Part shown: positions 6,274 to 10,553 of the stretch, piece after piece
Layout of the letters: each line of letters opens with the position of its first letter
Position numbering within the stretch: position 1 is the first letter of the stretch
Source of the DNA: Thermomicrobiaceae bacterium
Lineage (GTDB): Bacteria > Chloroflexota > Chloroflexia > Thermomicrobiales > Thermomicrobiaceae
Direction: 5' to 3'
Assembly: GCA_007123655.1 (NCBI GenBank)
Contig: SKKR01000066.1
Location: 1 to 13,641, forward strand
DNA length: 13,641 nucleotides
Notes under the pieces: generated by a model
Seen by the model: the letters and a program-made list of their open reading frames with translations, nothing else
Databases searched by the model: none
Told to the model about the DNA's origin: nothing
Made by a program: the position numbers and the translations under genes

Positions 6274-6364
6274 TGGCGGAAGGGGAGGGATTCGAACCCT
6301 CGAGGGCTATTAACCCTACGCGATTTCCAATCGCGCGCACTAGGCCAGACTATGCGACCCTTCC
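6274..6364 (-). tRNA. tRNA-Ser (anticodon GGA)
   Basis: The reverse strand folds as a class II tRNA. The acceptor stem is GGAAGGG/CCCTTCC with discriminator G73 and an encoded CCA (6276-6274). The anticodon stem is CGCGA/TCGCG around loop TTGGAAA, giving anticodon GGA for UCC/UCU. The T arm is GAGGG/CCCTC around TTCGAAT. A long variable arm (GGG/CCC) confirms serine. It is the last of three tandem tRNAs. Confidence 0.96.
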
Positions 6365-6378
6365 GTGTATCTGGCTGT

Positions 6379-6469
<91 letters not shown>

Positions 6470-6493
6470 GCGAGACATTCTGGCAGTCTGAAT

Positions 6494-6524
6494 ACAGAAA
6501 TGCAAGGCGGCAGACCGCCCTGCA
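6494..6524 (-). terminator. Probable minus-strand terminator after tRNA-Arg
   Basis: TGCA-a-GGCGG (6501-6510) pairs with CCGCC-c-TGCA (6515-6524) across a CAGA loop, with one A/C mismatch. Read on the minus strand, the hairpin is followed by a T-rich tail (TTTCTGTATT). It may partly separate tRNA-Arg from the two tRNA-Ser genes. Confidence 0.5.
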
Positions 6525-6533
6525 TTCACCTCG

Positions 6534-6606
6534 TACGCCCGGCAGGACTCGAACCTGCGACCTTTTGGTCCGCAACCAAACGCTCTATCCACTGAGCTAC
6601 GGGCGC
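6534..6606 (-). tRNA. tRNA-Arg (anticodon GCG)
   Basis: A canonical 73-base cloverleaf is present on the reverse strand. The acceptor is GCGCCCG/CGGGCGT (one G-U at the end) and the D stem is GCTC/GAGC with loop AGTGGATA. The anticodon stem is TTTGG/CCAAA with loop TTGCGGA, and the T arm is GCAGG/CCTGC with TTCGAGT. Anticodon GCG reads the Arg codon CGC. Arg identity is supported by A20, C35 and discriminator A73. CCA is not encoded, unlike in the two tRNA-Ser genes. G34 is unusual because most bacteria use A34 edited to inosine. Confidence 0.93.
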
Positions 6607-6887: not shown

Positions 6888-7466
6888 ATGAGCACGAGCA
6901 GGCAACGGAGCCGAAGTAAGAAGGAAGAGCAGAGCTGGCTCAACGGACGTACGCTCTGGGCCGTGGGTGGAGTGCTTGCGCTCATCATTGCCGCGCCGCT
7001 GCTGTGGGGCTGGATGAGTGGAGACGACGAGATGCCCGCGGTGCTCGAAGACGTTGTGCAGGAGATGCCTGATGAAGGGCGAGACCACGTAGCCCAGGGT
7101 ACGGAAGTCGATTACGACTCCGATCCGCCTACCTCAGGCCCGCATTATCCAAGCGTTGCTCCGCCAGATCTGTATCGCGAGGTCGTGCCGGACGAAATGC
7201 TGGTCCACAATCTCGAGCACGGTCACGTGATCGTCTATTATCACCCGTCGCTGTCGGACGAGTCGGCCAGAAAAATCAGCGAACTCACCAGCGAGTATGA
7301 CGGTCAGTGGGACGCCGTTCTTGCTGTTCCGCGGCCGGAGATGGAGTACGAACTCACGCTGACCGCGTGGAACGTCAAGATGGAGCTTGAAGAGTTTGAC
7401 GAAGAGCTGATCGACGCGTTCGTAGATGCCTTTCGCGGTAAGGGGCCTGAAAACCCCGTGCGCTGA
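6888..7466 (+). CDS. DUF3105 membrane-anchored protein
   Basis: The 192-residue protein has a very basic N-terminus (residues 1-15), one hydrophobic helix (about 22-42) and an acidic extracytoplasmic domain. PPTSGPHY (80-87) and VHNLEHGHVIVYYH (106-119) are the signature of the DUF3105 family, whose function is not established to my knowledge. Conserved His86, His107, His111 and His113 with Glu110 could bind a metal, which is inference. AGGGGG (6872-6877), ten bases upstream, supports ATG 6888. It seems to stand alone, between the minus-strand tRNA genes and the ilv leader promoter. Confidence 0.85.
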   Translation: MSTSRQRSRSKKEEQSWLNGRTLWAVGGVLALIIAAPLLWGWMSGDDEMPAVLEDVVQEMPDEGRDHVAQGTEVDYDSDPPTSGPHYPSVAPPDLYREVVPDEMLVHNLEHGHVIVYYHPSLSDESARKISELTSEYDGQWDAVLAVPRPEMEYELTLTAWNVKMELEEFDEELIDAFVDAFRGKGPENPVR

Positions 7467-7519
7467 CTGTCAATACCGCACGAAGTGGCCTTGTGAAGTC
7501 GCGTGGCGAGCACATCAGG

Positions 7520-7548
7520 TTGACAGGGATTTCACAAACTGCTACTAT
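7520..7548 (+). promoter_or_regulatory. Promoter for the ilvBN leader
   Basis: A perfect TTGACA (7520-7525) is followed after exactly 17 bases by TACTAT (7543-7548, four of six consensus bases). The start of transcription should fall near 7555, placing the leader ORF and attenuator in a transcribed leader of about 330 nt before ilvB. Confidence 0.7.
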
Positions 7549-7598
7549 GCCCTGAGTCGAGATGCATATCCGGACGATCAAGACAGGTTATTGAGTTC

Positions 7599-7772
7599 GT
7601 GGCAATCGCGGCAGACACTTCCATTGCACTGAACGTCGGGAAGTCGCAGTTCCTGGCGGATGCGCATGTCGTGATTGAGCGCGTCTCGGTTTTCCTTGGT
7701 GTTCTCGTACTCGTCGTAGTAGGCCTCATTATTAGCGGCCGTGTAGCCGACGGAGGTTTTGCGAGAAGCTAG
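7599..7772 (+). CDS. Candidate ilvBN attenuation leader peptide (Val/Leu/Ile-rich)
   Basis: A GTG-initiated frame encodes 57 residues ending at TAG 7770-7772. A second in-frame GTG at 7671 would give 33 residues, closer to known leader peptides; both starts have weak ribosome-binding sites. From 7668 to 7733, 16 of 22 codons are Val, Leu or Ile (nine Val, four Leu, three Ile), in the stretch VSVFLGVLVLVVVGLII. Several Val codons are GTA, which is uncommon in the neighbouring genes. The ORF lies just after a good promoter and just before an intrinsic terminator and ilvB. Its stop falls directly after the strand that can form the antiterminator. The alternative reading is a small single-pass membrane protein, since the same residues would make a transmembrane helix. 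Confidence 0.6.
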   Translation: MAIAADTSIALNVGKSQFLADAHVVIERVSVFLGVLVLVVVGLIISGRVADGGFARS

Positions 7773-7834
7773 GGATCACGAAGAAGATACCAAGCTCGCG
7801 AGCCTCCGGAAGCGACCGGAGGCTCGCTTTATTA
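7722..7834 (+). promoter_or_regulatory. Candidate transcription attenuator of ilvBN (antiterminator and terminator)
   Basis: Segment 2, CGGAGGTTTTGCGAG (7751-7765), can pair with segment 3, CTCGCGAGCCTCCG (7795-7808), giving 14 pairs (12 Watson-Crick, 2 G-U) with one bulged T at 7760. Segment 3 is also the 5' arm of the terminator, so the two structures exclude each other. A weaker protector pairing is possible between GGCCTC (7722-7727) and GAGGTT (7753-7758), with CGGC/GCCG (7736-7739 and 7746-7749) nested inside. A ribosome stalled at the Val/Leu/Ile codons would leave segment 2 free, favouring read-through. A ribosome at the stop codon would cover segment 2, favouring termination. Confidence 0.6.
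7798..7834 (+). terminator. Rho-independent terminator in the ilvB leader
   Basis: GCGAGCCTCCGG (7798-7809) and CCGGAGGCTCGC (7816-7827) form a perfect 12-bp stem with a six-base loop, followed by TTTATTAT. The hairpin ends about 50 bases before the ilvB ATG, so unless an unseen promoter lies in that gap, ilvBN transcription must pass through it. Confidence 0.9.
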
Positions 7835-7884
7835 TGTGACGCGAGTGAAGTGGCCGAACGTGGCCGGTAGAGAGGGGCGAATCG

Positions 7885-9627
7885 ATGGTTTCGACAGGCT
7901 CAGGAGCGAGTACGGAGGCGGCACCAGCACAGGCTGCGGCCGCGGACGTTCCACAGAACGGGGCAAGGCTACTCTGTCAGGCGCTTGAGCGGGAAGGGGT
8001 CGACCTGGTTTTCGGGTATCCCGGCGGTGCGGTGATCCCGCTCTACGATGTGCTGCCCGAGTTCGGTATCACTCACGTGCTCGTCCGCCACGAGCAGGGA
8101 GCTGCTCACGCGGCGGATGGCTACGCTCGCGCGACCGGGAAGGCCGGCGTGTGCATCGCGACCTCCGGACCCGGGGCGACGAACCTTGTCACCGGCATCG
8201 CGACGGCGATGATGGACTCCGTCCCGATGGTTGCCGTGACGGGTCAGGTTCCGCAGGCGGTGATCGGGAGTGATGCGTTTCAGGAAACCGACATCACGGG
8301 AATAACGATCCCGATTACCAAACACAACTTCGTCATCCGTCGCGTTGAAGATATCGGCCCGACGATCCAGAAGGCGTTCTATCTGGCGACCTCTGGACGG
8401 CCGGGGCCGGTACTGGTCGATGTGCCGAAAGATGTGCAACTGGCGGAAGGGACGCTTGCCCCTCGCGGACCTATCAACCTGCCAGGATACCGGCCAACGA
8501 TCGTCCCGCACCGGCGACAGATCAAGCGTGCCGCGGAGCTGATCAATGAAGCGGAACGCCCCCTCATTCTCGCCGGCCACGGCATTCTGATCTCCGGCGC
8601 GACCGACGAACTTGTCGCTTTTTCAGAGCACGCGGATGTCCCGGTCGGGCTGACGTTGCTTGGCATCGGTGGATTTCCGTCATCTCATCCCAACTGCCTC
8701 GGCATGGTGGGCATGCACGGGTTCTCGCACGCGAACCACGCAATCAACGATGCAGATGTTCTGATCGGCATCGGGATGAGGTTCGACGACCGGGTTACCG
8801 GCCGGATTAGCGAATTCGCGCCGAACGCGAAAATCATCCATGTGGATATCGACCCGGCTGAGGTCGGAAAGAACGTGGAGACCGCCGTTCCCGTTGTTGG
8901 TGACGCAAAGGAAGCGCTCAAGCTGTTGAGGGACAGCGTTGAACCTGTCGAGCACCGTGTCTGGCAGAAGGCGATCGACTCCTGGCGCTACCCGCTTCCG
9001 TCGACGCCGGCGTCGATGGATGGAAACCTGCCCCCGCAGTACGCGCTGGAACGCTTGCACACGTTGACCGAAGGAAAGGCCATTGTCACGACAGATGTTG
9101 GTCAGCATCAGATGTGGGCAGCCCAGTTCTACAAGTGCGATATCCCGAATCAGTGGCTGTCTTCCGGTGGCCTGGGAACGATGGGTTACGGTGTGCCGTC
9201 CGCGATGGGTGCGGCCTTCGGCAAACCCGATGAGGAAGTCTGGGCGATCGTTGGCGACGGTGGCGTCCAGATGACGCTGTTCGAGTTCGCCACCATTGTC
9301 CAGCACAACCTGAACGTCAAGATCGCGATCATCAACAATGGCTACCTGGGCATGGTGCGGCAGTGGCAGCAGTTGTTCCACGACCGGAACTACTCGGAGA
9401 CCCCGATCTCCAGTCCGGACTACGTCATGCTTGGCCAGGCCTACGGTATGGCCTCGCGCCGGGTCGCCAGACCGAACGAGGTCGAAGAGGTCATTCGCTG
9501 GGCGCAGTCCGTTCATGGCCCGGTCCTCATCGAATTCGTGGTCAATCAGGAAGAGAATGTCTATCCGATGATTCCGTCCGGCGGGTCATTCCGGGAGATC
9601 ATCGAACAGCACGAAACGGAGTGGTAG
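7885..9627 (+). CDS. ilvB: Acetolactate synthase, large (catalytic) subunit
   Basis: This ThDP-, FAD- and Mg-dependent enzyme condenses two pyruvates, or pyruvate with 2-oxobutyrate, in the first shared step of valine, leucine and isoleucine synthesis. At 580 residues it has the usual length. The N-terminal Pyr domain carries the catalytic Glu70 in [15 protein letters not shown], then [15 protein letters not shown] and the AFQETDI segment. The FAD-binding middle domain includes [12 protein letters not shown]. The C-terminal PP domain has the ThDP/Mg motif GDGG (457-460) with Asn484-Asn485, and the MVRQWQ loop typical of acetolactate synthases as opposed to other pyruvate decarboxylases. About 20 Ala/Gln-rich residues precede the conserved core. 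AGAGGGG (7871-7877) supports ATG 7885. ilvN follows after a two-base gap. Confidence 0.97.
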
Positions 9628-9629
9628 GA

Positions 9630-10148
9630 ATGAGAAGTCACACACTGGTCGTGCTGGTTGAGGATCAGCCAGGTGTCATGAACCGGATCATGAGTCTGTT
9701 CCGCCAGCGCGGGTTCAACGTCGACAGCATTGCGGTCGGTCACAGCGAGACGAGCGATCAATCGCGGATCACGCTGGTCGTGCGCGGGGATGACAAGACG
9801 ATCGAGCAACTCACCAAACAGTTGTACAAGCAGCTGGAAGTCATCAAGGTGACGAACGTCACCGGTGAGAATCTGATCCAGCGCGAGCTTGCGCTGATCA
9901 AGATCGCGGCGAGCGAACGTACGCGCGGCGATATCATGCGGCTGGTGTCTGAGGTCTACCGGGCGCGGATCGTCGACGCCTCGCCGGACTCGCTGGTGAT
10001 CGAGGTGACCGGCCCCTCTGACAAGATCGAGTCACTGATTTCGCTGATCCGGCCATATGGGATCAAGGAGATTACGCGGACCGGAATGGTCGCGATGCAG
10101 CGCGGCCAGGGTACGGTGAACGTCGCCAGGCAGGAAGCTGTTGCCTGA
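9630..10148 (+). CDS. ilvN: Acetolactate synthase, small (regulatory) subunit
   Basis: The 172-residue protein stimulates IlvB and makes it sensitive to feedback inhibition, usually by valine. An ACT domain spans about residues 3-78 (HTLVVLVEDQPGVMNRIMSL at its start, then FNVDSIAVG). The C-terminal ALS small-subunit domain follows from about 85 (RELALIKIA) to about 158. The start ATG lies two bases after the ilvB stop, with GGAG in the end of ilvB as ribosome-binding site, so translation is coupled and the subunits are made together. The usual next gene, ilvC, is not present; rpsO follows under its own promoter. Confidence 0.95.
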   Translation: MRSHTLVVLVEDQPGVMNRIMSLFRQRGFNVDSIAVGHSETSDQSRITLVVRGDDKTIEQLTKQLYKQLEVIKVTNVTGENLIQRELALIKIAASERTRGDIMRLVSEVYRARIVDASPDSLVIEVTGPSDKIESLISLIRPYGIKEITRTGMVAMQRGQGTVNVARQEAVA

Positions 10149-10202
10149 TCCGGAACCCATAGCTCAGGGAAAGATCCCCGTGTTGGCGGGCGGAATCAGT
10201 AA

Positions 10203-10231
10203 TTGTGGTGAGATGCACACGCTGCTATAAT
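10203..10231 (+). promoter_or_regulatory. Promoter for rpsO(-pnp)
   Basis: TTGTGG (10203-10208), a 17-base spacer and a perfect TATAAT (10226-10231) place the transcription start near 10238, about 45 bases before rpsO. Confidence 0.75.
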
Positions 10232-10283
10232 TGGAGAGTATTTGATCGTGATTTGCGCGGGAGTAGAGGGAGGCGCCGAGTAG

Positions 10284-10553
10284 ATGGCGTTGCACAAGGC
10301 CCAGAAACAGGACATTGTCAATGACTTCCAGACCCACGAGAGCGACACGGGGTCACCGGAAGTTCAGATTGCGCTGCTGACCGAGCGGATCAACAACCAG
10401 GTGCAGCACCTGCGCGAACATCCGCATGACAACCATTCACGGCGAGGACTGCTGAAGCTGGTCGGTCGTCGTCGACGGCTGTTGAGCTATCTGAGCAAGA
10501 AGGATGTTGAGCGGTATCGCGAGACGATCACCCGGCTCGGGCTACGCCGCTAA
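10284..10553 (+). CDS. rpsO: 30S ribosomal protein S15
   Basis: The 89-residue protein has the exact family length and the S15 signature: [16 protein letters not shown], then [28 protein letters not shown] and a basic C-terminus. S15 binds the central domain of 16S rRNA early in small-subunit assembly. AGGGAGG (10267-10273), ten bases upstream, supports ATG 10284. It precedes pnp in the order conserved across many bacteria. Confidence 0.98.

Follow-up and report, generated by a model that had tools for sequence, protein, structure and literature searches.

The window analysed here is a stretch of 13,641 nucleotides (positions 1 to 13,641 of contig SKKR01000066.1, assembly GCA_007123655.1) from a Thermomicrobiaceae bacterium, a relative of Sphaerobacter and Thermomicrobium whose genome is 70.6% complete. 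It contains the genes for both subunits of acetolactate synthase, preceded by a promoter-like site, a short open reading frame (ORF) dense in valine, leucine and isoleucine (V/L/I) codons, and RNA arms that could pair in competing ways (Table 1). We infer the start of ilvN inside an ORF at 9363-10148.

Table 1. Coordinates of the features at the ilvBN locus of the window
Feature	Position	Strand	Remarks
Sigma-70-like promoter, TTGACA-17-TACTAT	7520..7548	+	-35 at 7520-7525, -10 at 7543-7548; TG precedes the -10
Leader ORF, 57 codons from GTG, and TAG	7599..7772	+	Alternative start GTG 7671 (33 codons)
Putative regulatory run, 16 of 22 codons Val, Leu or Ile	7668..7733	+	
Arm 1, predicted partner of arm 2	7702..7727	+	7702-7709 and 7721-7727; duplex prediction; weak and scattered in the window's genus
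Arm 2, CGGAGGTTTTGCGAG, 5' side of the antiterminator	7751..7765	+	
Arm 3	7795..7809	+	Common to antiterminator (7795-7808) and terminator (7798-7809)
Arm 4 of the terminator-like hairpin, with T-rich tail TTTATTA	7816..7834	+	Arm 4 at 7816-7827
ilvB, acetolactate synthase large subunit	7885..9627	+	Pfam TPP_enzyme_N/M/C
ilvN, acetolactate synthase small subunit	9630..10148	+	Pfam ALS_ss_C and ACT domains

Just upstream of the leader region lie three tRNA genes on the minus strand (Ser-GGA, Ser-CGA and Arg-GCG, 6274-6606) and a DUF3105 gene (6888-7466). Downstream, ilvN is followed by the S15 gene rpsO (confirmed by Pfam) and not by ilvC (9630-10553), with pnp next, identified by inspecting its translation only. 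In another genome of the window's genus, G004, only a low-scoring, longer ilvC was found elsewhere (G004:C64:117690-118883), and ilvC adjoins ilvBN in all five genomes tested from genera g3 to g6. The window's own assembly also holds a second ilvB end (G000:C231:1-477), 96% identical to that of the window and perhaps from a second strain in the bin.

Anatomy of the leader region

An initial annotation, made from the window alone, had proposed that a ribosome-mediated attenuator controls ilvBN. The promoter hexamers, the 16 V/L/I codons among 22 in-frame codons and the perfect 12-bp hairpin with its tail all proved to be present as stated, and the antiterminator pairs as it had described, with 7 + 5 pairs by our count and more if central U-A and G-U pairs are included. 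The leader stop had been placed directly after arm 2; the codon is indeed TAG at 7770-7772, but it follows arm 2 by 4 nt. Translation may begin at GTG 7671, as had been suggested, but GTG 7599 is the more likely start, a relative (L009) having the same GTGGCAATC there. By eye, the Shine-Dalgarno sequence looks weak at either candidate, and both start codon and Shine-Dalgarno sequence look weak throughout the window's genus. Among 1000 dinucleotide shuffles of 7549-7884, an open 22-codon window with 16 V/L/I codons never arose, a perfect 12-bp hairpin arose once, and the two never arose together. The leader ORF matched no Pfam family.

One alternative is a riboswitch of a known class, whether a T-box or one that binds a metabolite or ppGpp. 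T-boxes do occur at leuA in the family, as well as ahead of ilvB in Thermobaculum, in its relatives and in a SAR202 MAG. At the Rfam threshold, however, the window gave only three tRNAs, with no amino-acid operon leader family and no T-box (RF00230), and a search of 7500-7900 at E-values up to 10 gave four matches, all far below their gathering scores. We consider a riboswitch of a known class at this locus extremely improbable.

Conservation across Thermomicrobiaceae

The family comprised 21 genomes, of which 18 had ilvB with readable upstream DNA and three (G003, G005 and G010) gave ilvB fragments only. The V/L/I-rich ORF, arm 2 and the hairpin, whose retention in relatives the initial annotation had named as support, are kept in all 18 readable loci, and the hairpin stem is uninterrupted over 9-14 bp in each. 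Across these loci the leader frame contains no stop over the 49 codons ahead of the leader stop, compared with 21 and 53 stops in the other two frames. The leader stop is TAG or TAA just after arm 2 in genera g1, g3 and g6, and a TGA inside arm 2 (GGGAGGC TGA GCGAG) in g4 and g5. The N-terminal part of the ORF varies between genera without conservation.

Upstream of the leader, a TTGACA-17-TAnnnT site is present in 18/18 loci, with scores of 9.5-11. A promoter between hairpin and ilvB would have spoken against attenuation; the best sites in that interval score only 4-7, so that none is comparable in any of the 18.

Pairing of the RNA arms

We examined the two competing helices in an alignment of family loci (A1). 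In the antiterminator, 95.8% of cells are paired, compared with 26.6-53.7% when the arms are slid by 1-3 columns, and the covariation score is 0.153 compared with 0.004-0.040; in the terminator, 93.5% of cells are paired, compared with 34.3-51.9%. Six of the 12 pairs in the antiterminator never vary, nor do 8 of the 12 in the terminator. The compensatory change that the initial annotation had looked for in both helices is borne out at one three-way position: columns 122, 184 and 193, one in each of the three arms, read C-G-C in the window's genus and G-C-G elsewhere, all three changing together. In number, changes on both sides of a pair are not unusual relative to shuffles: one antiterminator pair (equalled by 342 of 500 shuffles) and three terminator pairs (50 of 500) have changed on both sides, and the number of further pair types is reached by 483 of 500 shuffles for the antiterminator and 388 of 500 for the terminator.

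Arm 2 and arm 3 complement each other better than mononucleotide shuffles in every family locus (at most 4 of 200 as good in 18/18). With all 73 loci considered, at most 10 of 200 shuffles are as good in 38, and the signal is weak in many distant loci, perhaps because these regions are G-rich. We also exchanged arms between loci, using 69 of the 73 rows after dropping L202, L194, L198 and L204 by hand, in which the hairpin had been chosen far from the leader or a leader was absent. In family f8, which has other arm sequences, the native combination of arm 2 and arm 3 beats 60-61 of 64 swapped pairs in all three loci, while in L206 the native pairing is not better, 31 of 64 swapped pairs being as good.

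Arm 1 is more variable. Its predicted duplex with arm 2 has an energy of -16.7 kcal/mol in the window and -14.0 to -16.7 kcal/mol in the four loci of its genus. The 14 loci of other genera have values of -21.4 to -31.5 kcal/mol, and in them arm 1 sits at the 5' boundary of the V/L/I run or close to it. When the RNA is folded without a ribosome, the arm 1:arm 2 helix dominates in 12/18 loci, and the other six (L040, L045 and the four from the window's genus) form the antiterminator by default. Only 1.2 arm 1:arm 2 pairs are expected in the window under these conditions, and 1.2-2.2 across the four loci of its genus; since the antiterminator is the predicted default there, the off state in the window should depend on a ribosome covering arm 2.

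We modeled that ribosome by masking 29 nt around the A site at each of the last 28 codons, in a calculation that is static, not kinetic. In this model, the antiterminator was favoured (at least 6 expected pairs) at 172 of 223 positions with a V/L/I codon in the A site, compared with 131 of 281 positions with another codon. A ribosome at the stop codon left 0.0 expected antiterminator pairs in 18/18 loci. With the A site at the second-last codon of the run, at least 6 antiterminator pairs were predicted in only 9/18 loci; as the A site was moved along the run, permissive codons were predicted further upstream, where arm 1 is covered.

Strength of the terminator-like hairpin

The window has a moderate U-tract behind the hairpin (TTTATTA), and many relatives have a poor one (e.g. 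TCGTTGTGA and ATGGTGTAT), and the T-box terminator of one relative, G008, ends in six Ts. This comparison suggests that the attenuator hairpin may be leaky. The U-tract is full in most loci of family f5 and in several other loci of the class (e.g. TTTTTTGATG).

Another possibility is that leader translation acts on ilvBN without intrinsic termination, through Rho or through the stability of the RNA, the hairpin being a switch element. The poor U-tails in much of the family would fit such a route, and the part of the literature consulted discusses Rho in connection with cys leaders of actinobacteria that lack a clear terminator (PMC1262725). The full T-tails in f5 and several class loci, and the uninterrupted stem in every family locus, argue against a Rho or stability route, which we regard as unlikely. 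Nor is the hairpin likely to block the ilvB ribosome site directly in the window, because that site lies about 40 nt beyond it.

Codon choice in the leaders

For the 18 family loci, we compared codon usage over the final 30 codons of the leader with that of the ilvB genes (Table 2). V/L/I codons in the leaders are strongly shifted toward GTA and ATT and away from CTG, with a correspondingly low GC content at the third position (GC3), and the GC3 of the remaining codons is near ordinary. GTA is raised in each of the five genera. Fisher p-values for codon choice overstate independence because the loci are related. ATA and TTA are absent from the family leaders (0/58 and 0/97), so the shift is not a general preference for A or T.

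Table 2. Codon usage in leaders and in ilvB genes
Measure	Family leaders	Family ilvB genes	f5 leaders (26 loci)	f5 ilvB genes (four)
GTA among Val codons	51/78	15/877	48/60	4/205
CTG among Leu codons	12/97	351/782	7/100	85/175
ATT among Ile codons	33/58	118/829	46/64	11/142
GC3 of V/L/I codons	108/233	2183/2488		
GC3 of remaining codons	211/299	5568/7298		

Outside the family, counts that omit L202 and L172 show the same shift in f5 (Table 2), and it is weaker or absent in some other families, with GTA at 0/5 in the single f2 leader and 2/8 in f8. Several f5 leaders (e.g. L063, L071 and L074) end in an L-P-[IV]-G-S-like sequence, and the corresponding codons (CTCCCGATT..GGGAGC) fold into an additional small hairpin within the ORF.

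Biased, rare regulatory codons are predicted by theory, as set out in the part of PMC1183508 consulted. Among the tRNA genes of G008, Leu(GAG) matches CTC and CTT and Val(TAC) matches GTA, and these two genes adjoin; they stand in one cluster with tRNA-Phe (G008:C1:1736528-1736805).

Leaders matched to leuA and cimA

Similar leaders precede two other genes. For leuA, 17 of the 21 family genomes had a match above the NCBIfam cut-off, and a motif chosen after the first examples had been seen identified a leader ORF ahead of a hairpin at 13/17 loci, with I7 L65 V3 among 182 run residues; in one of these (L255) the frame continues past the hairpin. By this motif, no leader ORF was found at three leuA loci of the window's genus, and the fourth locus without one has only 68 nt of upstream DNA. 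For cimA (citramalate synthase, confirmed by TIGR00977 at two of the loci), a motif likewise chosen after first examples identified a leader at 11/12 loci, with I52 L8 V4 among 154 run residues, and at the remaining locus, L218, an Ile-rich ORF can be seen by eye. Across the twelve cimA loci (L216-L220, L257, L258 and L260-L264) the Ile-rich leader ORF (e.g. AIAIIAIIRPRVAG) is accompanied by a hairpin in 11, with none found at L218. The 18 ilvB leaders have a mixed composition, I55 L90 V61 among 450 run residues. No V/L/I leader was seen upstream of ilvD at 8 loci.

We regard this matching of codons to the product of the downstream pathway as the strongest single argument, from sequence, that the runs are sensors. 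It also bears on the possibility that the ORF encodes a small membrane protein, with the hairpin an ordinary terminator behind it and ilvBN transcribed from a promoter of its own. A V/L/I run could form one transmembrane helix, and at 57 codons the ORF is longer than the 15-residue leader of Corynebacterium glutamicum. Yet the residues of such leaders vary with the pathway downstream, Leu preceding leuA and Ile preceding cimA, and the interval between hairpin and ilvB has no comparable promoter-like site in 18/18 loci. The initial annotation had raised an ordinary membrane protein as an outcome that would count against attenuation; the ORF is unlike one, because its N-terminal part is unconserved between genera and its V/L/I codon usage is the reverse of that in ilvB. 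We judge this explanation very unlikely.

T-boxes in tandem with leader peptides

T-boxes exceeded the Rfam threshold at 10 of the 16 leuA loci scanned and at 0 of 8 cimA loci. The GAACTC specifier context and the TGGTACC core are each present at 15/16 leuA loci. A threshold T-box and a Leu leader occur together at seven leuA loci (L210, L211, L212, L213, L247, L249 and L252); at the three leuA loci of the window's genus the T-box stands alone. The arrangement in G008 (L210, 993-1446) is a T-box with its own terminator and six Ts, then the Leu leader, then a second hairpin. The same pair precedes ilvB in f13, where a T-box, a V/L/I leader ORF and a hairpin are found at 4/4 loci (L169 of Thermobaculum terrenum, 229-657, and L170, L171 and L172), with good arm 2 complementarity in three and poor complementarity in L172.

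The T-box specifier before leuA is CUC, which is also our reading for L169 from the alignment, and 55 of the 65 Leu codons of the leuA leaders are CTT or CTC; both sensors before leuA would thus report on tRNA-Leu(GAG). On balance we favour, with some reserve, a joint reading in which two mechanically different sensors of this one tRNA are stacked before leuA, first a T-box and then an attenuator, the same pair stands before ilvB in Thermobaculum and its relatives, and the window's ilvB belongs to a codon-matched regulon of ilvB, leuA and cimA that would respond to single isoacceptors through GTA for Val and CTY for Leu.

Spread beyond the family

To describe the wider distribution we used a loose rule: at least 6 V/L/I codons in 12, followed by a hairpin of at least 7 bp. 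The order contributed 61 genomes, 53 of them with an ilvB match at 1e-150, and 30 of the 32 loci outside the family with upstream DNA pass the rule. In the other orders of the class, where we sampled 40 of the 80 genomes with an ilvB match, 25/40 loci pass, a count that includes the false L202 and the doubtful L204. L202 was rejected as a leader, since the match looks like the end of ilvD. L172 passes the loose rule, yet 166 of 200 shuffles are as good for its arm 2. Several of the failing class loci (e.g. L179-L181, L184, L185 and L203) have ilvB after what we take to be the end of ilvD, in which case a leader would stand elsewhere. Five f10 loci and L192 have V/L/I-rich ORFs with no hairpin by the loose rule.

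Outside the class, among 80 of 593 named records, a comparable ORF and hairpin occur in Thermosporothrix (Ktedonobacteria, L099) and in a Thermoflexales MAG (L165), and a T-box occurs in a SAR202 MAG (L135) and in another Chloroflexi MAG (L093). A search of 33 related loci with Rfam returned only T-box, tRNA and RNase P.

Relation to known systems

The closest counterpart is the ilvBNC attenuator of C. glutamicum (ilvB-II motif), for which the portion of PMC11857589 consulted describes a V/L/I leader peptide, an antiantiterminator, an antiterminator and a terminator before ilvB. Its control codons are given there as CUU and GUA, two of the codons favoured in the Thermomicrobiaceae leaders. It differs in its arm sequences and in its leader of 15 residues, compared with about 50-60 here depending on the start; with 57 codons, the window's leader is, as the initial annotation had remarked, longer than classic leaders. 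The ilvBN, ilvGMEDA and leu attenuators of Escherichia coli likewise combine regulatory codons with competing RNA arms, according to the part of PMC1183508 consulted. The window's leader ORF is longer than those, leader stops here fall inside or just after arm 2, and the lineage is distant.

The T-box (RF00230) likewise responds to the charging of tRNA, and it is found upstream of leuA in these genomes, but it binds tRNA directly without a ribosome, and none was matched at ilvB in the window. A T-box is combined with a leader peptide in the B. subtilis anti-TRAP operon. Tandem T-boxes precede branched-chain amino acid operons in Bacillota, as described in the text consulted of PMC12452182; the tandem here joins a T-box to a leader-peptide attenuator. 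The ilvB-OMG and Leptospira ilvB motifs are ilvB-associated too, with upstream ORFs rich in branched-chain amino acids and Thr, and attenuation is argued to be common for ilvB genes in the sections consulted of PMC10272879. Neither motif had a match in the window or in the 33 loci scanned, a negative that holds insofar as the Rfam copy used contains them.

One published result speaks against an attenuator reading: mutating codons of a comparable ilvB leader in Streptomyces coelicolor made no difference, as reported in the part of PMC1262725 consulted. T-boxes at the Ile-tRNA ligase and trp genes of two Dehalococcoides appear in the portion consulted of PMC2494555. Switches between T-boxes and leader peptides are treated in PMC2965389, where the string 'Chloroflex' is absent from the main text. 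The initial annotation knew of no description of the mechanism in this lineage, and we found none of leader-peptide attenuation of ilv or leu genes there among the matches listed in the open-access literature, subscription papers being mostly outside this scope. The switch is of a kind already known.

A probable ribosome-mediated attenuator before ilvBN

The anatomy of the leader, its conservation, its codon choice and the matching of its amino acids to the pathway, all established by sequence comparison, support the proposal of the initial annotation and make it very probable that a ribosome-mediated transcription attenuator precedes ilvBN. From these we infer ribosome stalling, transcription termination and a starvation response, which would proceed as follows. 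RNA polymerase would start past 7548, with a ribosome trailing on the leader ORF. When Val-, Leu- or Ile-tRNA is scarce, the ribosome would stall in the V/L/I run and leave arm 2 free, covering arm 1 too in relatives with a strong arm 1; free arm 2 would pair with arm 3, the terminator hairpin would be blocked and ilvBN would be transcribed. When charged tRNA is plentiful, the ribosome would reach the stop just beyond arm 2 and cover arm 2, arm 3 would pair with arm 4, and transcription would end near 7834. In untranslated RNA, arm 1:arm 2 would fold in most relatives and termination is expected, whereas in the window's genus the folding model gives the antiterminator instead and read-through is expected.

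As judged from their leaders, ilvB, leuA and cimA would be switched on when the matching amino acids are short, and the window's ilvBN very probably behaves in this way. These findings suggest that attenuation by leader peptides is a widespread means of controlling branched-chain amino acid genes in the class (Chloroflexia/Thermomicrobia). The regulon, its isoacceptor-specific codon choice and the tandem with T-boxes give the system an interest beyond a single locus: the extreme codon choice offers an independent, quantitative test, far from E. coli, of the selective-charging theory of regulatory codons, and the tandem of T-box and attenuator would provide a natural case for comparing two tRNA sensors on one RNA.
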